A stretch of DNA of 64,000 nucleotides from Armatimonadota bacterium (GCA_020846535.1 JADLDR010000041.1:1-64000); one strand, 5' to 3'; shown: positions 32,023-61,241, counted from the first letter of the stretch. Made by a program: numbers and translations. The notes: generated by a model from the letters alone, not told the origin.

Positions 32023-33951
32023 GTGTGGCGAGCGGTGCTGCTGGGGATTGCGGCCATGCTCGTTGTCTGCGCGGTCGTGTCCTACGCCGAACTGGTGACC
32101 AAAGAGATACAGATCGGCTTCCTCCAGCTTCCGCCTGTCGTGGTGGCGATGCTCTTTTTCCTGATCCTGGGCAACCGGGTGATGAGCAAAATCTCCCGGC
32201 GGCTCAGGCTGTCCCCGCAGGAAATCATCGTCATTTATGGGATGATGCTGATCGCCTCCATGATCTCATCCCGCGGTCTGATGGAAGACATCCTGCCGAC
32301 CCTGGTAGGCATCAATTACTATACCAACGAAACCAACAACTGGGACAAGATCTACTATCCCTATATCAAGCCGTGGATGGTGCCGTTCGACCCCGCGAAA
32401 GGGGAGAAGCAGCCGGTCTCCAAAGGGTTTTACGAAGGGCTGCACTACGGGGAGCCGATCCCCTGGGGCGACTGGGTGGTCCCTTTAGCTTGCTGGAGCA
32501 TCCTGATCGGCCTGGTCTTTTTCGCCTTCATTTGTCTGGCGACGATCCTCTACCGTCAGTGGTCTTCCAATGAAAAGCTCTCCTTCCCCCTGGTGCAGCT
32601 GCCCCTGGAGATGGCCCGGGACGGGGAAAGCGGATCGTTCTTCAGCAACAGGCTGACCTGGCTGGGGTTCGCCCTCCCGGTCTTCCTCTTCGGCTTCAAC
32701 GGCCTCCACGCCCTCTACCCTTCTGTGCCCGGCATCAACTTGCAGCTCGATATCCACCAGTATTTTACCAGCCGCCCCTGGAGCGATATGGGCTTTACCG
32801 TGCTGTATATGTCCCTGGCCGGGGTCGGGTTCTTCTATCTGCTGCCCACGGAACTCCTGCTGAGCCTCTGGCTCTTCTTCGTCATCGCCCGGCTGCAAGA
32901 GGTGGCGGCCTCGGCCTTCGGGATGGAGCCGCAGGGGATGCCGCATGCGGCCTCCAGCGTGATGGTGGGCTATCAGACCGCCGGAGCCTATTTCGTGCTG
33001 GCTCTCTATTTCGTCTACATCGCCCGTCCCCATCTGAAGCAGGTGGTCAAGCGGGCCTTCGGTCGGGGCAAAATGGACGACAAGAATGAAATGATGCCCT
33101 ATTCGATGGCCTTCTGGGGGCTGGTCGGCAGCTTTGGCGGCATCGTTCTCTGGTGTCAGGCCGCCGGGATGAAGCCCGGCATGGCGGTCATCGAATTCGG
33201 CCTCTACATCTTCGTGCAGGCCATCGTGATGGTGCGCTGCACGGCAGAGGCCGGGCTGATCATGACCGAAGGCTCATGGAACCCTATCGATATCGTCGGC
33301 ATCGCGGTTCCCAAGCATGTCGTCGGCCCGCAAAACCTTACGGTCATGGCCTTCACCGATGCCCTCTATACCCGCGACCTGCGTGGCATCCCCCTTACCG
33401 GCTTCATGGATATCCAGAAAGCCTCCGACGAGGTGCGGGCGAGGAGACGAAAGCTGCTGGTCATCATCTTCCTGGCGATCCTGGGGGCCATCGTCTTCGC
33501 CGGGGCAATACAGATATGGCTCCCCTACCGGAGCGGGGCCATCAACCTCTACACTTACCCTTATGTCGCCAACAACATCCAGTTCTTCCGGGAGAACCAG
33601 CCGATGATGGAAGGTTCTGTCCTTTACGACTGGCAGGCTCCGGTCTTTTTCACGGCGGGAGCCGTCGTCACCGCGCTGCTGGGGTGGCTACGGTTGACCA
33701 TCTGGTGGTGGCCCCTGCACCCGCTGGGCTACGCCATGAGCGTTTCCTGGGCCATCTGCGTCTTCTGGTTCCCGATCTTTGTCGCCTGGGTCTTGAAATC
33801 GCTCATCGTTCGCTATGGGGGGATGTCCCTTTACGCCAAAGCCCGTCCTCTCTTCCTAGGCCTCATCTTCGGCGAGTTCACCATGGCCGTTTTCTGGACG
33901 GTGATCGCCTGGATATGGAATACACCCACCCCGTTCTTCCCATGGCCATAG
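32023..33951 (+). CDS. DUF6785/DUF6784-like multi-spanning membrane protein
   Basis: Many TMs; RQWSSNEKLSFPLVQLPLEM; WWWPLHPLGYAMSVSWA..LKSLIVRYGG; exact start uncertain. Confidence 0.8.
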   Translation: MWRAVLLGIAAMLVVCAVVSYAELVTKEIQIGFLQLPPVVVAMLFFLILGNRVMSKISRRLRLSPQEIIVIYGMMLIASMISSRGLMEDILPTLVGINYYTNETNNWDKIYYPYIKPWMVPFDPAKGEKQPVSKGFYEGLHYGEPIPWGDWVVPLACWSILIGLVFFAFICLATILYRQWSSNEKLSFPLVQLPLEMARDGESGSFFSNRLTWLGFALPVFLFGFNGLHALYPSVPGINLQLDIHQYFTSRPWSDMGFTVLYMSLAGVGFFYLLPTELLLSLWLFFVIARLQEVAASAFGMEPQGMPHAASSVMVGYQTAGAYFVLALYFVYIARPHLKQVVKRAFGRGKMDDKNEMMPYSMAFWGLVGSFGGIVLWCQAAGMKPGMAVIEFGLYIFVQAIVMVRCTAEAGLIMTEGSWNPIDIVGIAVPKHVVGPQNLTVMAFTDALYTRDLRGIPLTGFMDIQKASDEVRARRRKLLVIIFLAILGAIVFAGAIQIWLPYRSGAINLYTYPYVANNIQFFRENQPMMEGSVLYDWQAPVFFTAGAVVTALLGWLRLTIWWWPLHPLGYAMSVSWAICVFWFPIFVAWVLKSLIVRYGGMSLYAKARPLFLGLIFGEFTMAVFWTVIAWIWNTPTPFFPWP

Positions 33952-34020
33952 GGCGGTTTTGCAAGAACCGGATGAGGGCGGTTGCCATCTCAACCATGAG
34001 GTATCGGAGGTTTTGCTTGA

Positions 34021-35973
34021 ATGTTCATTCCCACCAAGACAGGTGAGGCTGCGGCAAGGGAACTCCGCGTTCGAAGCGGGATGACCTGGCGCGGGATACT
34101 GGCAGGCCTGGTCGGGTCGCTGGTGCTGGGGGTCGGGGCCGTTTATGGAACGATGCAGATTCGCGGCTCCTATATGGATATCGACTTCTCGACGGCAGGG
34201 GCGGTCTTCCTCTTTTTTATCCTCGTGGGCATCATCAATTCGGTGCTGGGCCGCCTGCGCCGCTCGTGGGCGCTCAGCCCGGCGGAGCTCATCACCGCAT
34301 ACGCTATGATGGTGGTGGCCTCGGCTATTCCCACCATGGGCTTCACAGCTCAGATCCTTTCGATCATCTCCAGCCCGTCGTATTATGCCAATGCCACCAA
34401 CCGCTGGGGCGAGATTATCGCGCCGCACCTCAAGCCCTGGGCCGTGCCGCACGGCAAAGAGACGATCCGGGCCTTCTATGAAGGGATGCCGGGCGGCGCG
34501 ACGATCCCCTGGATGGCCTGGATAAAGCCTCTGCTGGCCTGGATGCCCTTGATGATCTCCCTCTATGTGGTGATGATCTGCATGATGGTGCTGATCCGCC
34601 GCCAGTGGGCGGACCGGGAACGGCTGGCTTATCCCATCACCCAATTGCCTACCGATATGGTCGGCGAGCCGACCTTCTGGAAGAACCGCCTGATGTGGGC
34701 CGGATTCCTCATCCCCTTCGCCATCGGCAGCCTGATCGGCCTGCACTATTACTATCCTTCCATTCCGATGCTGAATCTCGTCTGGCGCTTCCCCTGGTTC
34801 CGCAGCCTGGAAACGCTGGTGCTGCGAATCAGCCTCCCGATGATCGGCTTTCTCTATCTGGTCAACCTGGATACCCTCTTCAGTCTCTGGTTTTTCAATC
34901 TCGTCGCCCAGATGGTGCGCGGCACGCTCAATATCATGGCGGTCGAATTCAAAGGGTTCATCAGCCCCTACGGCTCGCCTTCCCCTATCTTCGGCTATTT
35001 GGGAATGGGAGCCATGATCGCCCTGGTCCTGGTCGGCCTGAGAACCGCCCGGCCCCATCTGAAGGAAGTCTGGCGCAAGGTGATCGGCAAGGGGCCGCAG
35101 ATAGACGATTCCGGGGAAATCCTGCCCTACCGGCAGGCATTCGTGGGAATGACGCTGGGCCTCGTCGTGATGGCGGTCTGGCTTTCGATGAGCGGCATCC
35201 CTCCGCTCGCGCTGGCGCTCTTTCTGGCCGCGGCGTTCCTCCTCTTCTATGGCCTGACCCGCGTGGTGGTGGAAAGCGGGATGGCGGAGGCGGTCGCCTC
35301 CACCATCGCCCCGGGCATCGTCACAGCGGCCTTCGGCACTTCGGTCGCGGGACAGCAGGGGATGGCGGCCCTGGGGCTGACCTATGTTTGGACCGCCGAT
35401 ATTCGCACCTTCGTGATGGCCTCTGCCGCCCACAACCTCAAGATGGCGGAAACCGTCCCCGGCAGGAGACGCGGCCTCTTCTGGGCCATGCTGCTGGCGA
35501 TTGCGGTCACGATGGCCTCCACTCTCTGGCTGACGATCTATCTGGCCTATCACCGCGGGGCGATCAATCTCAATAGCTGGTTCTTCAACGGCGGGCCAAT
35601 AGCCGCCTATACGTGGGTGGGCGACCGGATTACCAACCCCGTGCCCCCGAGCGGCATAGGCTGGGCGCTGATGGGTTCGGGCTTCGCTTTCATGACCTTT
35701 CTGATGTACATGCGCCAGACTTTCCTCTGGTGGCCCTTCCACCCCATCGGATTCTGTATCGGCACGACCTGGATCATGGACGAACTCTGGTTCACCTGCT
35801 TTCTGGCCTGGTTTTTCAAGTTCCTCATCGTCCGCTACGGGGGCCTGCGCCAGTTCCGAAACTTCCGCCCCTTCTTCCTGGGGCTGATCCTGGGGCAGTT
35901 CGTCTGTAACGGCATGTGGCTTATCATCGACGGCCTGACCGGCCAGCAGGGCAACCAGATTTTCTGGATATAA
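34021..35973 (+). CDS. DUF6785/DUF6784-like multi-spanning membrane protein (tandem paralog)
   Basis: RRQWADRERLAYPITQLPTDM; LWWPFHPIGFCIGTTWIMDELWF..FKFLIVRYGGLRQFR..GLILGQF parallel the preceding gene. Confidence 0.82.
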   Translation: MFIPTKTGEAAARELRVRSGMTWRGILAGLVGSLVLGVGAVYGTMQIRGSYMDIDFSTAGAVFLFFILVGIINSVLGRLRRSWALSPAELITAYAMMVVASAIPTMGFTAQILSIISSPSYYANATNRWGEIIAPHLKPWAVPHGKETIRAFYEGMPGGATIPWMAWIKPLLAWMPLMISLYVVMICMMVLIRRQWADRERLAYPITQLPTDMVGEPTFWKNRLMWAGFLIPFAIGSLIGLHYYYPSIPMLNLVWRFPWFRSLETLVLRISLPMIGFLYLVNLDTLFSLWFFNLVAQMVRGTLNIMAVEFKGFISPYGSPSPIFGYLGMGAMIALVLVGLRTARPHLKEVWRKVIGKGPQIDDSGEILPYRQAFVGMTLGLVVMAVWLSMSGIPPLALALFLAAAFLLFYGLTRVVVESGMAEAVASTIAPGIVTAAFGTSVAGQQGMAALGLTYVWTADIRTFVMASAAHNLKMAETVPGRRRGLFWAMLLAIAVTMASTLWLTIYLAYHRGAINLNSWFFNGGPIAAYTWVGDRITNPVPPSGIGWALMGSGFAFMTFLMYMRQTFLWWPFHPIGFCIGTTWIMDELWFTCFLAWFFKFLIVRYGGLRQFRNFRPFFLGLILGQFVCNGMWLIIDGLTGQQGNQIFWI

Positions 35974-36000
35974 TCTCACCCATCGTATCGGAGGCAAAAG

Positions 36001-37434
36001 ATGAAAGCCGGTTTTGCGGAACGCGATATCACCCCGGAGGCCGGAATGGAGCAGCCGGGGGGTTATGGGAAAGCGTATCATTCGGGATATGTACACGACC
36101 CGTGCAAGGTGCGGGTTGCCGTTTTCGATGACGGATCGGGGAGGGCGGTACTGGTCGGCGCGGACACCCTCATGGTTCCCCGCGCTCTGGCGCAGTCCGT
36201 CCGGGCCGCGGTGGCCGAAAGCTGCGGACTGAAACCGGAGGCGGTTTTGATCGGAGCATCCCACTCGCACAGCGCCGGGCCGCTGGGGATGGTGCAGCCC
36301 GGGGAATACGACCACGCCTCTCCGCTGGCCCGAAAGCTGGCCTACGAAATGTCCTCCTGCGCCGATGCCCGCTACCTGGAAAGCACGCGCCGGCAGATGA
36401 TCGGGGCCATCGAGGACGCCTGCCGCAACCTGGCGGCGGCGCGGTGCGGCGTCGGATCAGGCCAGGAAAGCACTGTTGCCTTCAACCGCCGGTTCCGGAT
36501 GAAAAACGGCCTCAGCTACACCCATCCGGGCAAGGGCAACCCCGATATCATCGAACCGGCAGGCCCTATGGACCCGGAGGTAGGCGTCATCGGGGCGTGG
36601 AGCGAGGAAGGCCGATTCCTCGGCTGCGTGGTGAATTACGCCTGTCACGGCACGACCGGGCCGGGCGGGGCTTCGGCGGACTGGATCTACTACCTGGAGC
36701 AGACGATCCGGGGCGTTATGGGACAGGAGGCTGTCGTCGTCTTCCTGAACGGTGCCTGCGGGGATGTCACCCAGGTCAATAATTTGAGCCCCTATGCCAC
36801 CGAATATGGCGAACGCTCGGCTCGCCTGGTCGGAGGGCGCGTGGGAGCAGAGGCGGTGAAAGTTCTGGTGGGCATGGAGGCGGGCAACCTGACGCCGGTG
36901 GCCGCCCGATCCAGAACGCTCCGGATCACCCGCCGACATCCAGGCCGGGAGAGGCTGAAGCGGGCTGTCTCGATAGCCGAGCAGGACCCGAGCAGCGCCG
37001 ACGCCACCCCATGGACGTTCGCCAAAGAAACCGTCCTGCTGGACGCCCTGGTCGCACGGGAGCCGGTCGCGGAGGTCGAAACGCAGGCTGTCCAGATAGG
37101 GCCTGCCGTCTTTCTCGCCAATCCCGCCGAATTCTTCTGCCAGTTCGGCCTGGATATCAAACAGGAAAGCCCGTTCCCCTACTCCTTTCCGGTGGAGCTT
37201 GCCAACGGCTGCGTCGGCTACGTCCCCACGCCGGAAGCTATGAGCGAGCGCGGCGGCGGCTATGAAACTCGCCTTTCCTCCTACACAAACCTCGACCTAC
37301 AGGCAGGCCCGCAAATCGTGGCCTCCCTGGTCGGCCTCAGCCAAGAGATGACGCCCGGCGCATCTCCCGAACCGCCCCTCGCCCCACCTTTCAGCGGCCC
37401 CTGGAGCTACGGAAACGTGCCGCCGGAAGTGTGA
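36001..37434 (+). CDS. Neutral/alkaline non-lysosomal ceramidase-like N-terminal domain protein
   Basis: AGFAERDITPEAG..VLVGADTLMVP..VLIGASHSHSAGPLG..NYACHGTT..VVFLNGACGDVTQVNN. Confidence 0.85.
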   Translation: MKAGFAERDITPEAGMEQPGGYGKAYHSGYVHDPCKVRVAVFDDGSGRAVLVGADTLMVPRALAQSVRAAVAESCGLKPEAVLIGASHSHSAGPLGMVQPGEYDHASPLARKLAYEMSSCADARYLESTRRQMIGAIEDACRNLAAARCGVGSGQESTVAFNRRFRMKNGLSYTHPGKGNPDIIEPAGPMDPEVGVIGAWSEEGRFLGCVVNYACHGTTGPGGASADWIYYLEQTIRGVMGQEAVVVFLNGACGDVTQVNNLSPYATEYGERSARLVGGRVGAEAVKVLVGMEAGNLTPVAARSRTLRITRRHPGRERLKRAVSIAEQDPSSADATPWTFAKETVLLDALVAREPVAEVETQAVQIGPAVFLANPAEFFCQFGLDIKQESPFPYSFPVELANGCVGYVPTPEAMSERGGGYETRLSSYTNLDLQAGPQIVASLVGLSQEMTPGASPEPPLAPPFSGPWSYGNVPPEV

Positions 37435-50260: not shown

Positions 50261-51186
50261 ATGCCGCGAGAACTGGTCGCTATCGCGCCGCGCCAGCCGG
50301 TCATCCGGGAGTATGACGACCCGCCCCTGAAGGAAAACCGGGTGCGGATCCGGTCGGAGTTCAGCACCCCCAAGCGCGGCACGGAGCTGGGGATCTACCG
50401 GGGCGTCTCGGCCTTTTCCCTGCGCCGGTGGGATTCGGAGTGGAATATGTCCTTTCCCGGGAGCAGGCCGAGTCTGCCGGTTTCCCCATGTCTCTCGGGA
50501 ATATGACCGTGGGAATGGTGATCGAAACCGGAAACGCCGTCGCCCGCTACCGGGCCGGGGGCCGGGTGTTCGGGCACTTCCCGATCCGCGAAACGCACAC
50601 CGTGGCCGAAGGCCGCATCGAGGCCGTCGCGCCCGAGGGGATGTCCCCTCATGCCAGTGTCTGCTGGGATCCGGCGAAATTCGCCCTGGGAGCCGTCCGG
50701 GACGCCCATATCCGTCTCGGTGAGCGGGTGGCGGTCTTCGGGATGGGGGCTATCGGCCTGATCGCCCTCCAGATGGCCCGCCTTTCCGGGGCCGCCTGGG
50801 TGCAGGGCAGGCCCGGATGTGGCGATAGAGGCCAGCGGGGCCTATCCCGCCCTCCAGGAAGCGGTTCGCTGCTGCGCGGTCGGGGGCCGGGTCGTTCCCC
50901 TGGCCTTCTACGAAGGCGAAGCCTGCGGCCTGCGCCTGGGCGAAGAGTGGCACATAAACCGCGTCACCGTCCTTTCCTCCCGTGCCTGCACGGAGCCGGA
51001 CCGGGACTATCCCTTATGGGACAACCGCCGGGTCCGCGAGACCGCCTTCAGCCTGCTGCGGGAGGGACGCCTCCGGGCGGACGGCATATCGATCCTATCG
51101 TGCCCTTCGAGGCATCCGCCGACGCCTACAGAGCGATTGATGAGCGTCCCTGGAAAAGCGTGCAGCTGGGAGTTGTCTACGGATGA
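50261..51186 (+). pseudogene. Zinc-type (MDR) alcohol dehydrogenase remnant with several frameshifts and an internal deletion
   Basis: MPRELVAIAPRQPVIREYDDPPLKENRVRIRSEFSTPKRGTEL / GNMTVGMVIETG..RVAVFGMGAIGLIALQMARLSGAAWV / VAIEASGAYPALQEAVRCCAVGGRVVPLAFYEGEACGL / PIVPFEASADAYRAIDERP in different frames. Confidence 0.85.
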
Positions 51187-51201: not shown

Positions 51202-52242
51202 ATGACAGGTTATGAGCGTATTCACAGTGTTTTATCCGGGCGCAAGCCCGACAGGATGCCAGTTCTGCCGATCCTGCATACCGGGCTGGCCCCTCTGTGC
51301 GGCGTTCCGCTGGGGCGCTTCTTCACCGATGCGAAGGTGATGGCCGGGGTGATGGCGGAAGGCTTCCGGCGCTTCGGCTATGACGGGATCCAGCTTTCGA
51401 TGGGCGTTACCGGGGAGGCGGAGGCGCTGGGGGCGGAGGTGGCCCAGCCGGAGAACGGCTCCCCTCTGCTCAGGCAGCGTCTTTTGGCCGACCCCTCGCA
51501 ACTGGAAACCTTACGCCAGCGCGATCCTCTGACCGGAGGGCGGATGCCCCTCTTTTTCAAGGCCGTTGCCGAGACAGTGCAGCAGGCCGGGGAGGAAGCG
51601 TTCGTGATCGCCACCATGCGCGGGCCGCTGATCGCCGCCTCCCAGCTCCGGGGCGTGGAGCAGATTCTGATCGACATGGTGGAAGAGCCGGATATGCTGG
51701 AGGCTATCCTCGATTTCACCGCAGGGATGGCTCTGAGGCTGGGGAAAGCCCTGCGCTGCACCGGAGCGCAGGGCCTGATCCTGGGGGAAGCCACCTGCTC
51801 CCCGAACTTCATCTCCCCTGCCCACTACCGCAGCCTGGTGCTGCCGCGCCACCGCCGCCTGATCGCCGGCCTCCAGGAAGCGGGCTGGGAGGCCCTTGGC
51901 CTCCATATCTGCGGCAACACCCTCCCCATCCTGGAAGATGTGATCTCCACCGGTATCACCCTCTTCGATATCGACTATCAGGTGGATGCCGTTGCAGCCG
52001 CGCGGGCGGCGGCTGGGCGTGTCACCCTGCGCGGCAACCTCGACCCCAGCTCCGCCCTCCGCTTCGGCAGCTCGCAGTCTGTCTATGATCAGACGAAAAA
52101 GCTGTGCAGCCTTATGCGGAATAACCGGTGGATCGCGGGCAGCGGATGCGATGTCCCGCCAGGGACGTCTGCTGCCAATCTAACGGCCATGGTTGCTGCG
52201 GCGCAGGGACGCCCGATGGACGCCCGGGGAGGCTCATCATGA
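51202..52242 (+). CDS. Uroporphyrinogen decarboxylase family protein, MtaA-like (HxC...C Zn motif)
   Basis: GLHICGNTLPILEDVISTGITLFDID..GNLDPSSALRFGS..SGCDVPPGT. Confidence 0.88.
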   Translation: MTGYERIHSVLSGRKPDRMPVLPILHTGLAPLCGVPLGRFFTDAKVMAGVMAEGFRRFGYDGIQLSMGVTGEAEALGAEVAQPENGSPLLRQRLLADPSQLETLRQRDPLTGGRMPLFFKAVAETVQQAGEEAFVIATMRGPLIAASQLRGVEQILIDMVEEPDMLEAILDFTAGMALRLGKALRCTGAQGLILGEATCSPNFISPAHYRSLVLPRHRRLIAGLQEAGWEALGLHICGNTLPILEDVISTGITLFDIDYQVDAVAAARAAAGRVTLRGNLDPSSALRFGSSQSVYDQTKKLCSLMRNNRWIAGSGCDVPPGTSAANLTAMVAAAQGRPMDARGGSS

Positions 52243-53135
52243 AACGTTACAATGTTCTGAGCGAGGCTCAGGTTCGGCATTTTCTGGAACGCGGGCATAT
52301 CATCATTCACGAGGCTTTTCCGCGGGAGACGGCGGCCCTGTGGACGGAGCATTCTTTCTCCCGCCTGGGATACGACCCTTCAGACCCTGCCACCTGGCAG
52401 CAGCCCATCATCCACATGCCGACCGTTCACCGCTTCGATATCTGCGAATTCGCTCCCGACGCCTGGGCGGCGGCCTGCGACCTGATGGGCGGAGCGGATC
52501 GCATCCGGCAGCCCTGCATGATCGGGGACGGCTTTATCGTCAATTTCCGGTGGGAGGCGGACCGCCCCTGGCAGCCGCCCTCCACCGCCTCTCCGGGCTG
52601 GCACAAAGACGGCGATTTCTTCCGCCACTTCCTGGACAGCCCGGAGCAGGGGCTTCTCACCCTGGTGATCTGGTCGGATATCGCCCACCGGGGCGGCGGA
52701 ACCTATATCGCCTGCGATTCGGTCGCTCCGGTCGCCCGGTATCTTGCGGCCCGACCCGAAGGCGTGCTGCCCAATGATTTCGATTTCCGCACCCTCGTTT
52801 CCGGGTGCCGCGACTTTCTGGAATATAAGGGTCAGACCGGGGATATCGTACTCATTCATCCCTACATCCTGCACGCCTCCTCTCAGAACCTTTCAGGCAT
52901 CCCTCGCTTTCTGACCAATCCGCCCTTCGCCCTGAAAGAGCCGATGAACTTCAACCGCGCCAACCCGGACGACTACTCCCCGGTCGAGTTGGCCGTCCTG
53001 GGCGGGCTGGGAGTGGAGCGGCTGGACTTTCTTCCCGCCGCACCCCGGGAGCGCGTCTATCCTGAAAGGGAGCGAATCCAGCAGAAGATGCTCGAAGAGG
53101 AGCGGGCGCGGCTGGGCGAGGGAATAGAGGAGTGA
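52239..53135 (+). CDS. Phytanoyl-CoA dioxygenase (PhyH) family protein
   Basis: GWHKDGDFF (HxD) and distal H in YILHASSQN; ATGA overlap with upstream gene. Confidence 0.8.
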   Translation: MKRYNVLSEAQVRHFLERGHIIIHEAFPRETAALWTEHSFSRLGYDPSDPATWQQPIIHMPTVHRFDICEFAPDAWAAACDLMGGADRIRQPCMIGDGFIVNFRWEADRPWQPPSTASPGWHKDGDFFRHFLDSPEQGLLTLVIWSDIAHRGGGTYIACDSVAPVARYLAARPEGVLPNDFDFRTLVSGCRDFLEYKGQTGDIVLIHPYILHASSQNLSGIPRFLTNPPFALKEPMNFNRANPDDYSPVELAVLGGLGVERLDFLPAAPRERVYPERERIQQKMLEEERARLGEGIEE

Positions 53136-53139
53136 TGCG

Positions 53140-53937
53140 ATGATAAAATACCTGCTTCCCGAAATGACCTCCAGAGAATGCCAGGCGTACCAGGTTCAGG
53201 GCGGGGACATCATGGTCGTGCCGGTCGGCTCGGTGGAAGTTCTGGGGCCGCACCTGCCGGTGGGAGGGCGGTGCTTCGTGGCGGAAGCCTTCTCCCGCCT
53301 GCTTGCCCAGGAGGTCGGCGGCCTCTGCCTTCCTGTCACCCCCTTCTCCAGCGTCCGCAATACCTTCGACCGACCGGGCAGCGTGGATGCGCCCGAATCC
53401 GAAGTCAACGCCTATATCCGAGCCGTGTTCGACGATCTCTTTGCCACCGGCTTCCGGCGCATCCTGCTGGTTACCTACCTCGATTACCTGCGCTATTACA
53501 TCCCCCAGGAGTTCTACGAGGATCGCCAGGTGGCGGCAGGCGGCATCCACCTGGAAGAACTTCTCCATGACCGGGAAGGCGTCGGACAAGGCGCGTGCGT
53601 CGCCGGGGCGCTGCGGATTCTGGGTCGGGCGGAGCGGGCGGACAGAATCGAAGCCGAAAACCGGCGGCTCCTGGAGGAAGGCTGCCCGCCGCCCGCCCTG
53701 CTGGAATCGCTGGCATCGCTCCTCGATGTGGGGTCGGTAGGCTTCACCTATCCGCCGGGAGCGTACCCTTGCCCGCCCGAGCCCGGCCTTTCCGGAGAGA
53801 TGGGCGAACGGGCGCTCCGCCAGGCAGCCCGCGAACTGACTCCAGCGGTGGAGAGCCTCCGGGGATACAACGAATTTCTCGCCCGACGGGGCGGCAGCCG
53901 CGGCCTGCTCTGGCGGGGCTGGAGGTGGCCTTCATGA
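53140..53937 (+). CDS. Creatininase-like protein lacking several canonical metal ligands
   Basis: VPVGSVEVLGPHLPVGGRCFVAEAFSRLL; TYLDYL occupies the NGHGGN position. Confidence 0.75.
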   Translation: MIKYLLPEMTSRECQAYQVQGGDIMVVPVGSVEVLGPHLPVGGRCFVAEAFSRLLAQEVGGLCLPVTPFSSVRNTFDRPGSVDAPESEVNAYIRAVFDDLFATGFRRILLVTYLDYLRYYIPQEFYEDRQVAAGGIHLEELLHDREGVGQGACVAGALRILGRAERADRIEAENRRLLEEGCPPPALLESLASLLDVGSVGFTYPPGAYPCPPEPGLSGEMGERALRQAARELTPAVESLRGYNEFLARRGGSRGLLWRGWRWPS

Positions 53938-54734
53938 GTGCCTGTTCTTTGCTGGATATGTTTCCCTCCGAGATCGAAAGCAGGCTCCGGGAGGGGAACG
54001 ATATCGCCATCCTACCGATAGGCTCGATAGAGCAGCACGGCCCACACCTCCTGCTGGGCACAGACGGCTTTTTCGCTCAGGCGCTGGCGCTGGAGATCGG
54101 GGCGGCCTCCGGGGGATTCGTCCTGCCGCCCGTCCCCTTCTCCTGGGTCGGATGCACCAACGCTTTTGCCGGAGGCATCGGTGTGCGGGAATCGGTCTTT
54201 ATCGCCTATCTGAAGGCAGCGGTGTCCGGCCTCTGGCAGTCGGGCTTCCGGCGCATCCTGGTGGTGAACGGGCACGGCGGCAACTTCTACGCCCTGCGAG
54301 ACTTCCCCCACGACCTCTACAAAGAGACAGGCATCCCGGTCATGAGCGTCTACGGCTTCACCGGATGCCGGGAAGCGGATGCGCTCATCGAGCGAGCGGG
54401 CGGCGGCGAGGGAACCGGGCTGGCCGGGGCGCTCCTCCTGCTGGGCCGCGAAGACCTGGTGGAAATCCTGCGCCAGAACACGCGCCGGGCCGTGGAGGAA
54501 TTCGGCAACCGGCCCGATGTACGGCTGGAGCCAGAAGCCGCTCGGGAATCGCGCCGCCTGGGAGTGGTGGGCCACGACTATTCCCACGAATGCCTGCACG
54601 TGTCTCCTGACGCCCGCCTCGACCCGGAAGCGGGCGCTGCCGCGATCCGGCTGGCGGCGGCGCATGTGGCAGGCGTGATGGGCGATTTCAAATCTTATGT
54701 GGAAGCGGTTCTCGCGGACAGGAGCAAAGGATGA
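53934..54734 (+). CDS. Creatininase family protein (canonical motifs)
   Basis: LPIGSIEQHGPHLLLGTDGFFAQALA; ILVVNGHGGNFYALRD; ATGA overlap. Confidence 0.9.
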   Translation: MSACSLLDMFPSEIESRLREGNDIAILPIGSIEQHGPHLLLGTDGFFAQALALEIGAASGGFVLPPVPFSWVGCTNAFAGGIGVRESVFIAYLKAAVSGLWQSGFRRILVVNGHGGNFYALRDFPHDLYKETGIPVMSVYGFTGCREADALIERAGGGEGTGLAGALLLLGREDLVEILRQNTRRAVEEFGNRPDVRLEPEAARESRRLGVVGHDYSHECLHVSPDARLDPEAGAAAIRLAAAHVAGVMGDFKSYVEAVLADRSKG

Positions 54735-55714
54735 GAGAAATCCGTGTTGCCAGCATCCAGCCTGTGCGCCAGCCTCATCTCGATCCCTTCGGCGGGGAAC
54801 GGGACAGGGCGATGGGCCGGGCTAAAATCGAGGAAAACCTGGAGATGGCCTGCCGCCTGCTGGATCGGGCCGGGCGGGAGGGGTGCGACATCGCCTGCTA
54901 CCCGGAAGACATCCAGGGTATCGCCCATTACAGCTATTATCAGGACGATCCCGGCCTTTTCGCAGGCTTCGTAGAGGAGATTCCCGGCCTCACTGCCGCC
55001 CTCATCGCCGGAGCCGCCAGGGAACACCGGATGAATATAGTCTTCGGCCTTTTTGAGCGGGAGGGAGAGAGGATATACAATACCGCCGTGCTGATGGGCC
55101 GGGACGGGAGCATCCTCGGAAAATACCGGAAGGTTCACCTGCCCTTTTCGGAGACCTGGGCCGAGACCTCCGGCGATTCTTTCCCGGTCTTTCGAACCGA
55201 TTTCGGCACGGTGGGGATCATGATCTGCTACGATATCAACTTCCCCGAATCGGCCCGATGCCTGGCTTTACACGGCGCGGAGATTCTCTTTCATCCCACC
55301 ATGGGCTACAGCGTGGCCGGGATGTGCGAGGGCAACGGCCTGATGCGCGTCCGGATGCGGGCCATGGACAACCTGGTCCCGGTCGTTGTGGCAACCTGCG
55401 GCCAGGATTCTGTGATCGCCGGCAGCGATGGGAGCGTCCTGGCGATGGCCCGCCCGGAACAGGAAGATATCGTCTATGCCACCATCGACCTGGACGCCGC
55501 GCCGGAGGATCACAGCCAGTGGGAGATCATCACCGGAACGGCGGACATGAAAGCCAGACTCTTCCAGGAGCGAAAGCCCGGAGCCTACGCAGCCATCACA
55601 GACCCCAACCCGCCCCTTCTGGAGCGATACCGGCATCCGGGGAAGCGGCTTCGCTCCTCTCCCGAAGAGATACGCGCCTCCTATGAAGAGATCCGGAAGT
55701 GGTGGTCGCATTGA
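54731..55714 (+). CDS. Carbon-nitrogen hydrolase (nitrilase superfamily)
   Basis: E/K/C triad in CYPED, GKYRKVHLP, IMICYDINFPE; ATGA overlap. Confidence 0.92.
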   Translation: MREIRVASIQPVRQPHLDPFGGERDRAMGRAKIEENLEMACRLLDRAGREGCDIACYPEDIQGIAHYSYYQDDPGLFAGFVEEIPGLTAALIAGAAREHRMNIVFGLFEREGERIYNTAVLMGRDGSILGKYRKVHLPFSETWAETSGDSFPVFRTDFGTVGIMICYDINFPESARCLALHGAEILFHPTMGYSVAGMCEGNGLMRVRMRAMDNLVPVVVATCGQDSVIAGSDGSVLAMARPEQEDIVYATIDLDAAPEDHSQWEIITGTADMKARLFQERKPGAYAAITDPNPPLLERYRHPGKRLRSSPEEIRASYEEIRKWWSH

Positions 55715-56868: not shown

Positions 56869-57705
56869 ATGCCCGGAACCATTCTGATCGGTGTGGATGT
56901 GGAAAGCGCCAGCGAGGCCAGCGCGGGATACGCCCGCTACGGGGCCGAAATGCTGGCGCAGGAGGCAACGCCCGCCACCTGGTATGTCACTGGCAGCACC
57001 CTGGAGCGGTATCCCAGCCTCTTTGCCGAACTGGATCGGGCCGGAACAGTCGACATCCAGTCCCATACCTACAGCCATCTCCTGCTCAAAACAGTCTGCA
57101 TCGAAGTGCCGCCGGGCCGCACGGTCCACGGGAAGACCGACTGGTATATCCAGCCGGGCGGCACCAATGAAGAGATCGATACCGACCTGGATCGATGCCA
57201 GAAGCTGTTTGAGGATGTCTTGGGTCGCCGGGCCTTCGGCCTGACCTGCCCCTGGAACTACTATCGCGGCCTGATGGACCGGCTTGATCTGCTGGAGATC
57301 GTTCGCAGCCACGGCTTCCGCTTTCTCCGGGCCTTCGGGCGCAACGAAAAAGACGGCCAGCCGACCCCGCTGGAATGGCAGCCCTTCTTCTACGCCCCGC
57401 AGGGCTTCGGGGATATGCTGGAAATCTTCATCCACGACTACCAGGACGCCTTCTACTTCATCCAGTTCAACGCCCTGACCGACGCCAGGACCTATCCGGA
57501 TCACCTGCGGAAAGTGGCGGACCGGGTGGCCTCCGACAACCTGGTCTGGAGCCTGGCGACCCACGACCACGGCTGCGCCGACCGCGAATCCTTCGAGCAA
57601 AAGCAGTTCTGGCTCCGGGAGCTGATCCGTTACGCCAAATCCCTGGGCATCCGCTTCATGACAGGATCGGAGTATTACCGGGAGAGGATTGAGGACAGCG
57701 GATAG
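56869..57705 (+). CDS. Polysaccharide deacetylase family protein
   Basis: ILIGVDVESA..ATPATWYVTGSTLERYPSLFAELDRAGTVDIQSHTYSHLLLKT. Confidence 0.85.
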   Translation: MPGTILIGVDVESASEASAGYARYGAEMLAQEATPATWYVTGSTLERYPSLFAELDRAGTVDIQSHTYSHLLLKTVCIEVPPGRTVHGKTDWYIQPGGTNEEIDTDLDRCQKLFEDVLGRRAFGLTCPWNYYRGLMDRLDLLEIVRSHGFRFLRAFGRNEKDGQPTPLEWQPFFYAPQGFGDMLEIFIHDYQDAFYFIQFNALTDARTYPDHLRKVADRVASDNLVWSLATHDHGCADRESFEQKQFWLRELIRYAKSLGIRFMTGSEYYRERIEDSG

Positions 57706-57784
57706 CGCCGCGAGTGAAGAAGGATATTCCCGCCCCCTGGCGCAATCATTGATTGACACTTATTGCGACACAAAGCAGGAGGAG

Positions 57785-58534
57785 ATGATGTCCCTTTCCC
57801 CACTCGAAATCGAGCGATACCGTGAAGAAGGCTACCTCATGTTTCCCGCCCTCATCCGCGGCAAAAAGCTGGCCCGCTATAAGGGCATTTTCGACGAGCT
57901 GGTGGAGCGCAGCCGTTCCATGCAAACCTCAGAGGGCGGCTACTCCCTGGCCCCCGATGAGAACGGCAAACCCGTTCCGGGACGGCTTCACAAGATTCAG
58001 GGGGTCTGCGTGGTCGATGAGCGCGTCCTGGACCTGGCCCGTGAGGAGGCCATCCTGGACCGGGCGGCCTCTCTGATCGGCCCGGACCTGGATGTCTTCG
58101 GCACCAAGTTCTTTCCGATGCTGGTCCGGGGAGCCACCTCTACCGGCTGGCATCAGGACAATCACTACTTCGGCACCAACTCCGACCGGGTGCTGAGCTG
58201 CGCCATCTATCTGGAGGAGACCGACCGGGAGAACGGCTGCCTGCAAGTGGTTCCCGGCAGCCACCGGACAGGCGATCTGGCGGAACACACCTTCGGGTCG
58301 GGGGTCATGGCCCACGGCGAGTGGGTGGATGTGGACGAGAGCCGGGCGGTGGATATCATCTGCCCGGGCGGAACGGTGGTCTTCTTCTCCGCCAACCTCC
58401 TCCACGGCGCACTCCCGAACACAAGCGACCGCACCGGCTACCGCACCGCCTGGCACTACATCCCCGGCGACCTGAACCTGGCGATGTTCCCGCGCGGCGG
58501 CTACCGCGACCGGCATATCGTGAGAGGGAAATAA
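57785..58534 (+). CDS. Phytanoyl-CoA dioxygenase (PhyH) family protein
   Basis: GWHQDNHYF (HxD), NGCLQVVPGSHRTG, distal H in LLHGALPNTS. Confidence 0.93.
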   Translation: MMSLSPLEIERYREEGYLMFPALIRGKKLARYKGIFDELVERSRSMQTSEGGYSLAPDENGKPVPGRLHKIQGVCVVDERVLDLAREEAILDRAASLIGPDLDVFGTKFFPMLVRGATSTGWHQDNHYFGTNSDRVLSCAIYLEETDRENGCLQVVPGSHRTGDLAEHTFGSGVMAHGEWVDVDESRAVDIICPGGTVVFFSANLLHGALPNTSDRTGYRTAWHYIPGDLNLAMFPRGGYRDRHIVRGK

Positions 58535-58555
58535 GAGGCGTTTCCCAAGCCTGCC

Positions 58556-58876
58556 ATGAACCTGTTTCATTTTATCGCACTGGCCTCAGCCAGCGTCCTG
58601 CTGTCCTACATCACGATCCGGCTGGGCGGCAGAACCGCATTGAGCGAGTACCCATGGCTTGCGCTTGCCTGGGTGCTGCTGGTTTTTACGATTGGCCGTG
58701 TGGCGGATCGTGAAGGACTGTCCCCTCGCCCCGAACAGGAATTGGACAGAGACAGGCGGATTCATTCTGCCTGGGGCTGGACGGTCGGCCTGCTCATTCT
58801 CATCGGATTGGTATGGCTGATTTTCATCTCACCCTATGCTGCCCTCCTGCGCCAGTTACTCGGTTATGAACCCTGA
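58556..58876 (+). CDS. Small membrane protein, 3-4 TM
   Basis: FIALASASVLLSYITIRLGG..WLALAWVLLVFTIGRVAD..WTVGLLILIGLVWLIFIS. Confidence 0.6.
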   Translation: MNLFHFIALASASVLLSYITIRLGGRTALSEYPWLALAWVLLVFTIGRVADREGLSPRPEQELDRDRRIHSAWGWTVGLLILIGLVWLIFISPYAALLRQLLGYEP

Positions 58877-58887
58877 AGGAGCCTGCG

Positions 58888-60180
58888 ATGTCCTTAACAA
58901 ACCTCATCCCTAACGGCGATTTCACCCAAGGAGCGGGCGGCCCCCTGCCTGCGGGCTGGGAGCCGGTCTGCCCGAACCCGGCCCTCGCCCCTCGCTTCAG
59001 ACGGGAGGCGGAAGACGGCCCGCCCTGCCTGACGGCCTCCGGCAGCGGGCGGGAGGAATGCTTCGGCTATATGCGCTGCCCTGTCCGTCTGGAAGGCGGG
59101 AAAACCTACCGGATGCAGGTCGTCCTCCGCTATCGGGGGATGGATGACCTGAACCGCCATCTGGTTCACGGCATCTTTTCCCCGCATTTCAACAACGGCG
59201 TCTTCTCCTACCGCAAAGAGGGTGACCGGGTGATCGGGGAAGGCACATTCCCCGGCCCGCAGGAGGGCGAGGGCGGCGAAATCCGGCTCTACTTCCGTTT
59301 CAGCCCCCGGGGAAAGGTCTATTGGGAGTCGGTCTTTTTAGAGGAATGCGCCCCCATCCCGCCGCGCCCGGCCAGAATCGCCTGCGCCTGGGGAACAGGT
59401 GATCTGGATTTCTGGAGCCGCTGGCTCGACAGGGCGGGCGAAAAGAAAGCCGATATCGCCCTCCTGCCCGAAATGCTGAACGGCAAAGGCGCTCAGGACG
59501 CTGAACCCCTGGACGGCCCGACCGGGGAGATGATGGCCTGCAAGGCCCGGCAGTGGGGCATGTACGTCAGCGGAACCTTCGACGAAAGGCGCGGGGATAT
59601 GGTCTTCAATACCGCGCCCCTTTTCGACCGGAAGGGCGACCTGGCGGGCGCTTACAGCAAGAACCAACTGTTCGACCCGGAAGAGGACGACGGCGCGACC
59701 CCGGGCGTCGGCTATCCCGTCTTTCATACCGATTTCGGCAGGGTCGGCATCATCATCTGCTACGATAGCTGGTTTCCCGAACCGACCCGACTGCTGGCCT
59801 ACAAGGGGGCCGAACTAGTACTCTTCCCGAACGCCGGCTATTTCACCGGCCTCATGCCCGCCCGCTGCGCCGACAACGGGGTCTGGATGGCGGTCAGCAG
59901 CCTGTCCGGGCCTGCCGGGGTCTGGGATTCCGGCGGGACCTGCGCGGGCGAGATGCACCCGGACCCCACGCGCCACGTCGCCTCCTCCATTCTGAACTTC
60001 GAGAAGGATGAGGCCATAAGGATGATCCTTGCCTCCGTCGATCTCAGCATCCGCTACAGCCCCCACTGGTGGGGCGGCCCCATGCGCTCCGCCCCGGGAG
60101 GCCGCAGGCTCCGCCAGACCTTGATTCATCCCATAGAGGAAGAAATCGCCCGAGAATCCCGCCGGTGGTGGGAAGAATAA
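58888..60180 (+). CDS. Carbohydrate-binding-like domain fused to carbon-nitrogen hydrolase
   Basis: N-term LIPNGDFTQGAGGPLPAGWEP..CPVRLEGGKTYRMQVVLRYRG (CBM4/9-like); C-term nitrilase LLPEML, YSKNQLF, IIICYDSWFPE. Confidence 0.85.
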   Translation: MSLTNLIPNGDFTQGAGGPLPAGWEPVCPNPALAPRFRREAEDGPPCLTASGSGREECFGYMRCPVRLEGGKTYRMQVVLRYRGMDDLNRHLVHGIFSPHFNNGVFSYRKEGDRVIGEGTFPGPQEGEGGEIRLYFRFSPRGKVYWESVFLEECAPIPPRPARIACAWGTGDLDFWSRWLDRAGEKKADIALLPEMLNGKGAQDAEPLDGPTGEMMACKARQWGMYVSGTFDERRGDMVFNTAPLFDRKGDLAGAYSKNQLFDPEEDDGATPGVGYPVFHTDFGRVGIIICYDSWFPEPTRLLAYKGAELVLFPNAGYFTGLMPARCADNGVWMAVSSLSGPAGVWDSGGTCAGEMHPDPTRHVASSILNFEKDEAIRMILASVDLSIRYSPHWWGGPMRSAPGGRRLRQTLIHPIEEEIARESRRWWEE

Positions 60181-60194
60181 GGACAAGGAGACTC

Positions 60195-61241
60195 ATGCCA
60201 CAAACATCCCGCGAGATTATGACACGATGCCTGAAGTTCGAGCATCCCGAACGGATGCCCCGAGACCTCTGGGCGCTGCCCTGGGCCGATTGGACTTTCC
60301 CTGAGACGATGGCGAGACTTCGAGGCCGCTTCCCTTCCGATATCGGCGGCCCGGCCTATGTCTATCAGCCTTCGCCCCGCGTGCAGGGCGACCCTTACCG
60401 GATCGGAACCTATGTGGACGAGTGGGGCGCGATCTTCACCAACATCCAGGCCGGGATGATCGGGGAGGTCCGGACGCCCGCGCTGGCCGATATCAAGGAC
60501 TGGCGGCAGATCACGCCCCCTTACGAAATCCTCCCCGAAGACCCCTTGAAAGCCCGCGATGCCGTCAACCGGAGCTGCGCCGCCTCGGAGAAGTTCATCC
60601 TGGCGGGCTGCCCCCGCCCCTGGGAGCGATACCAGTTCCTGCGCGGCAGTGAGAACGCCATGCTCGATATCATGGAGCCAGAATGCGGAGCGGAGGGCTT
60701 CCTCCAGGCCATCCACAACTTCTACCTGACCGAAATGGAGTTCTGGGTGACCACCGATGTGGACGCCATCGCCTTCATGGACGACTGGGGAGCGCAGAAC
60801 CAACTTCTCATTCCGCCGCGCATCTGGCGGGAGCTTTTCAAGCCTTTATACAAAGACTACTGCGACCTGGCCCACTCCAACGGAAAATTCATCTTCATGC
60901 ACTCCGACGGGCATATCTCGGAGATATACGAGGACCTGGTCGAGATCGGGGTGGATGCCATCAACTCGCAATTGTTCTGCATGGACATGGCCGACCTCTC
61001 TCACCGCTTCAAAGGGAAGATCGCCTTCTGGGGCGAGATCGACCGCCAGCATGTGATCCCCTCTCCCGACCCGCAGATGGGGCGCAACGCCGTCCGCGAG
61101 GTGGCCCGCCACTTCTACGATCCCGCCGGGGGCGTGATCGCCCAGTTCGAGTTCAGCGCAGGCGGCAACCCCGACACCGTCCTGGCGATTTTCGAGGAAT
61201 GGGAAGCCGTGCAGGCCGAAGCGGGCAGGCAGACGGGATAG
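60195..61241 (+). CDS. Uroporphyrinogen decarboxylase-fold protein lacking the MtaA HxC...C motif
   Basis: SREIMTRCLKFEHPERMPRDLW..HSNGKFIFMHSDGHISEIYEDLVEIGVDAINSQL..GEIDRQHVIP. Confidence 0.88.
   Translation: MPQTSREIMTRCLKFEHPERMPRDLWALPWADWTFPETMARLRGRFPSDIGGPAYVYQPSPRVQGDPYRIGTYVDEWGAIFTNIQAGMIGEVRTPALADIKDWRQITPPYEILPEDPLKARDAVNRSCAASEKFILAGCPRPWERYQFLRGSENAMLDIMEPECGAEGFLQAIHNFYLTEMEFWVTTDVDAIAFMDDWGAQNQLLIPPRIWRELFKPLYKDYCDLAHSNGKFIFMHSDGHISEIYEDLVEIGVDAINSQLFCMDMADLSHRFKGKIAFWGEIDRQHVIPSPDPQMGRNAVREVARHFYDPAGGVIAQFEFSAGGNPDTVLAIFEEWEAVQAEAGRQTG

Follow-up and report, generated by a model that had tools for sequence, protein, structure and literature searches.

A conserved creatininase-family gene pair with one metal-site-less member in a five-gene locus of an Armatimonadota bacterium

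Five closely packed genes

We analysed a 64,000-nucleotide stretch of DNA (the window) from an Armatimonadota bacterium (GCA_020846535.1, JADLDR010000041.1:1-64000) whose genome comprises 6.14 Mb in 253 contigs. ORF calling on the window gave five ORFs spanning 51202-55714, all on the + strand. These genes, and the broken gene that precedes them, are as follows:

50261..51186, + strand: broken medium-chain dehydrogenase, directly 5' of UroD1, with ADH_N and ADH_zinc_N matches in different frames
51202..52242, + strand: UroD1, URO-D fold, MtaA/CmuA-like, with the Zn-type HxC...C ligands (H235, C237, C316)
52239..53135, + strand: PhyH1, divergent Fe(II)/2OG-oxygenase-like protein
53140..53937, + strand: Cre1, creatininase-fold protein without a metal site
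53934..54734, + strand: Cre2, creatininase-fold protein with E33, H35, D44 and H114 intact
54731..55714, + strand: Nit1, carbon-nitrogen hydrolase with an E59-K134-C166 triad

The ORF calls and the sequence bear out the strand, junctions and operon-like packing described in the original prediction. ATGA overlaps join UroD1 to PhyH1 (at 52239), Cre1 to Cre2 (53934) and Cre2 to Nit1 (54731), and 4 nt separate the PhyH1 stop from the Cre1 ATG. No terminator-like site was called on the + strand between the five genes and one was called inside the Nit1 ORF, in a scan that overall gave no excess over shuffled sequences. An Rfam search over the window gave no match.

The five family assignments made earlier were confirmed by Pfam (URO-D, PhyH, Creatininase twice, CN_hydrolase). 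Scores were 202.6 bits for UroD1 (PF01208), 149 bits for Nit1 (PF00795), and 64.2 and 123.2 bits for Cre1 and Cre2 (PF02633, gathering score 31.3); PhyH1 barely exceeds its cut-off (PF05721, 23.0 bits against 22). In NCBIfam, none of the matched proteins reaches a curated equivalog or subfamily cut-off, and PhyH1 is unmatched. Nit1 has the E-K-C triad of the N-carbamoylputrescine amidase/beta-ureidopropionase branch of the CN_hydrolases and finds its best-scoring model there, but its 110 bits against the N-carbamoylputrescine amidase model fall below the cut-off of 410.

The Cre1-Cre2 pair and the metal site of Cre1

The relatives available for comparison include none from the genus or family of the window genome, and the comparisons are therefore distant only. 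Used as an anchor for neighbourhood comparison, Nit1 has one ortholog, which pointed to a conserved Cre1-Cre2 module. The two genes occur in that order and overlapping in three genomes from two phyla: the window genome, Armatimonadetes Ch33 and Poribacteria Dive96_bin1.70. The overlap measures 4 bp both in the window and in Ch33; in the Poribacteria genome it is ~11 bp long. The order in Ch33 is Nit1-Cre1-Cre2, with identities of 59, 61 and 70% (59-60% for Nit1). In the Poribacteria assembly the 5' part of Cre2 comes immediately after Cre1 (~68-69% identical), Cre2 being split over two contigs. A nitrilase ortholog thus adjoins the pair in two of the three genomes (window and Ch33); in the Poribacteria genome the best Nit1 relative is 39% identical and located away from the pair.

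The module is rare, with two genomes found besides that of the window. Apart from the window genome and Ch33, it and the Cre1 ortholog are absent from 291 Armatimonadota genomes, and among 85 genomes of the poribacterial phylum they are absent from all except one. When 84,980 species genomes were scanned with Cre2, relatives turned up in two, the scan using exact peptide patterns that more distant relatives may escape. Among plasmids, Cre1 and Cre2 matched only weakly and in part, and no Cre1 relative was found in viral contigs. Identity is similar within and between phyla and presence is patchy, which suggests that the module was probably transferred horizontally. The flanking genes differ from genome to genome and so leave the substrate unconstrained: names read from the sequence by eye are, presumably, an acyl-CoA ligase 3' of Cre2 in Ch33, and a sulfatase before the pair and a Gfo/Idh oxidoreductase after Cre2 in the Poribacteria genome.

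Cre1 has lost most of the family's metal site. The metal ligands of P. putida creatininase are E34, H36, D45 and H120, with D45 bridging (numbering is that of the P. putida enzyme, checked against the alignment). The corresponding columns of a 24-row family alignment read E, L, R, L in the window Cre1, E, L, R, V in Ch33 and E, L, R, L in the Poribacteria ortholog, and all other rows covering these columns keep E, H, D, H. In the window protein E34 is kept as E33, while L35, R44 and L114 replace H36, D45 and H120; the dinuclear site of an active creatininase is accordingly missing (H36L, D45R, H120L). The original prediction of two creatininase-fold proteins is right about the fold of both, but the metal site is gone from Cre1 with three of its four ligands, and since Cre1 lacks these ligands the idea of two ring-opening enzymes is unsupported.

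The fold itself is retained. Modelled with AlphaFold (pLDDT 84.5), Cre1 resembles creatininase structures with TM values of 0.5-0.66; its matches at E<1e-5 are creatininases only (Foldseek 2e-7 to 3no4), and the sole other significant match is one ribosome-complex chain at 9e-4. The Cre2 model (pLDDT 90.3) does better, with TM up to 0.74 and significant matches that are all creatininases. Both proteins thus share the fold of the creatininase family (PF02633; P. putida 1j2t, Nostoc 3no4) at 13-25% identity to the solved members, and differ from these in forming a tandem of an intact paralog and one without three of the ligands.

Cre1 is not decaying, and it evolves nearly as slowly as the intact Cre2. 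Its pN is 0.20-0.25 against a pS of 0.61-0.75 (Nei-Gojobori), near the values for Nit1 and slightly above those for Cre2. For the window and Ch33, the sole pair with moderate dS and the only one for which we give the ratio, dN/dS is ~0.24 for Cre1, ~0.22 for Nit1 and ~0.14 for Cre2 (Nei-Gojobori). Residues invariant in all three Cre1 orthologs include R44, GGRCFVAEAF, YLRYYIPQE and a C-terminal RGxxWxGWRW, a tail absent from Cre2. In the family tree Cre1 groups with Cre2 as its sister (90/87), within a subfamily of eight rows (100/100) that takes in two single-copy relatives, and the Cre1 stem is long (1.25).

Cre2 and a candidate two-subunit hydrolase

Cre2 retains all four of these ligands, with E33, H35, D44 and H114 as the equivalents of E34, H36, D45 and H120. 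A fifth ligand would be E122 or the glutamate of the late ETS motif. Cre2 differs from P. putida creatininase (1j2t) at the position of E122, where it has Gly, like Nostoc 3no4, with another nearby Glu conserved, and in lacking the late ETS motif. As the HAxExETS motif is present in most family rows and missing from Cre2, the activity of Cre2 on its own is not assured. The creatininase equivalog model TIGR04448 gives 39.5 and 64.8 bits for the Cre proteins against a cut-off of 235. Cre2 and the single-copy relatives have a common C-terminal Y(S/T)(H/D)ExxH, absent from other family rows, that could form an additional site for metal or substrate.

Creatininases are oligomers, and the P. putida enzyme is a hexamer. 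Cre1 shares the fold of Cre2, is strongly constrained and is translationally coupled to it, but has no metal site; the simplest reading is that it is the non-catalytic subunit of a mixed oligomer. We therefore favor, as probable though well short of certain, a reading in which the part of the operon that matters is a small hydrolase module made up of Cre1 and Cre2, with Nit1 present or not, and in which Cre1 acts as the non-catalytic companion of Cre2 and probably joins it in a hetero-oligomer. Both proteins would descend from a duplication that took place long ago within a single creatininase subfamily. Cre2, having retained the metal site, would be the catalytic subunit, and Cre1, having lost it with Arg replacing the bridging Asp, would persist as a conserved partner that completes, gates or stabilises the Cre2 active site. 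Going by family chemistry, our guess is that Cre2 hydrolyses a cyclic amide, a ureide or a similar bond, and that Nit1 may then cleave the product at an amide or N-carbamoyl bond. That the pair is found in three genomes only, and the link to Nit1 in two, we count against this reading.

A bolder form of it can be put forward tentatively: a heteromeric creatininase-family enzyme whose pseudoenzyme subunit, which has a conserved WxGWRW tail of its own, completes or gates the site of its sister, in a module that moves between phyla with a CN-hydrolase and carries out an undescribed two-step hydrolysis.

Creatininase-family genes are often labelled creatinine hydrolases from the fold alone. Cre1 is a conserved member of the family without the usual metal site, kept beside an intact sister in two phyla. 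If the complex forms, the pair would represent a creatininase whose pseudo-subunit has a regulatory or structural role, an arrangement of which we found no earlier report in the literature searched, and Cre1 by itself would be mis-annotated and would appear inactive in screens. The literature searched yielded no paper that deals with Armatimonadetes creatininases, with a pseudoenzyme among creatininases or with these genes as a set, in keeping with the original statement that the genes match no described pathway.

The subfamily might instead lie nearer to IolN (3-dehydro-scyllo-inosose hydrolase), a diketo-cyclitol C-C hydrolase, and the module might degrade a sugar or cyclitol derivative. Both Cre proteins find their highest curated score with the IolN model NF041098 (75.4 and 43.7 bits), carbohydrate genes flank the operon (GH123_N, GH95 and a polysaccharide deacetylase), and the presumed Gfo/Idh oxidoreductase lies 3' of Cre2 in the Poribacteria genome. 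The alignment with IolN covers the N-terminal half only, however, with scores far under the cut-off of 245; the match to solved creatininases is comparable, and a CN-hydrolase adjoins the pair in two genomes. We consider this substrate assignment unlikely, and it is compatible with the two-subunit reading.

A second possibility concerns Cre1 itself, which might be an enzyme with metal-independent or re-sited chemistry that performs a second step on the Cre2 product. The strong conservation of its new residues across phyla (GGRCFVAEAF, YLRYYIPQE and RGxxWxGWRW) is what such an enzyme would display, and the long stem branch is consistent with a change of function. A recognisable catalytic set is nevertheless absent, and a stoichiometric partner would account at least equally well for the translational coupling of Cre1 to Cre2 seen in each of the three genomes, which leaves a catalytic Cre1 rather unlikely.

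The five-gene set and its surroundings

The original prediction envisaged one pathway for all five proteins, in which a methylated cyclic amide is demethylated or hydroxylated and then hydrolysed stepwise. Neighbourhood comparison shows no conservation of the five-family set elsewhere, which for the full set is the outcome that the original prediction named as refuting it; what recurs, in two phyla, is its Cre1-Cre2 part, accompanied by the nitrilase or not. PhyH1 orthologs (44-70% identical, in ~20 of 291 Armatimonadota genomes) and UroD1 orthologs (55-60%, in two genomes) lie outside any such set and never adjoin the other genes. As a pathway anchor PhyH1 was rejected: across 22 ortholog neighbourhoods no shared neighbours emerged, window proteins of the other four families were not nearby, and the neighbours present recur in two or three genomes at most. 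UroD1 was likewise rejected, its orthologs standing alone.

PhyH1 has the facial triad HxD...H and the 2OG Arg (H122, D124, H212, R223), residues that do not vary across 23 rows. UroD1 can be aligned along its length with the MtaA/CmuA methylcobamide methyltransferases, has their HxC...C and finds its best PDB match in 4ay7 MtaA; it differs in staying below the cut-off of TIGR01463 (mtaA_cmuA; 166.1 bits against 235.4) and in having no adjacent corrinoid gene. The lack of a corrinoid protein had been raised earlier as an objection to methyl transfer. It holds for the immediate neighbourhood, but the objection is weaker than stated, as a stand-alone corrinoid protein of 216 aa is encoded elsewhere in the genome. 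That protein lies with pterin-dependent methyltransferase-like, UroD-like and DUF1638-like genes in what is likely a corrinoid methyl-transfer system. UroD1 may work with this corrinoid protein, with no tie of UroD1 to the Cre module.

The tight, overlapping packing, the Zn-type HxC...C of UroD1 and the corrinoid protein in the genome all suit a five-protein pathway, and the established chemistries of the families can be strung together. Against it stand the separate occurrence of the PhyH1 and UroD1 orthologs, the missing metal site of Cre1 and the sub-threshold mtaA_cmuA score of UroD1. Moreover, UroD, CN-hydrolase and creatininase genes are numerous in the source genome (65, 25 and 14 first-look candidates), so chance or opportunistic neighbours would be unsurprising. 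We regard the single pathway as improbable, and a pathway shared by UroD1 and PhyH1 with the Cre module is not supported. The two are probably independent local recruits, joined to the module in this lineage only, and five genes packed tightly into an operon do not have to make up a pathway.

That Cre1 is a functionless, decaying duplicate held in place by operon structure would agree with the loss of three ligands and with the broken gene just upstream, but its intact frame, its 61-68% identity across phyla, a dN far under dS and the same loss pattern in all three genomes largely refute this and make it very improbable.

The broken dehydrogenase gene (50261-51186) lies between the GH95 gene and UroD1, has three frame switches and is apparently missing a portion of its Rossmann domain; it is probably a pseudogene or an assembly error. 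Just 3' of the operon, at 57689-61241, are a second PhyH gene, a CN-hydrolase gene whose product has a long N-terminal region that is not catalytic, and another UroD-like gene, which reads HSDG in place of HxC, so that similar families occur twice within ~10 kb.

Genes that we read by eye as PF04909-like amidohydrolases adjoin creatininase-subfamily genes in two genomes, as two adjacent genes in one (G296) and as one long ORF, resembling both of these, in Ch33. A link of the module to such amidohydrolases was considered and set aside, a similar protein not being found in the window. At 32023-37434 the window encodes two membrane proteins of the DUF6785/DUF6784 type, and a ceramidase-like gene comes next. 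In G296, genes related to both kinds adjoin a Cre-subfamily gene; in Ch33, a DUF6785-like gene is located 3' of Cre2.
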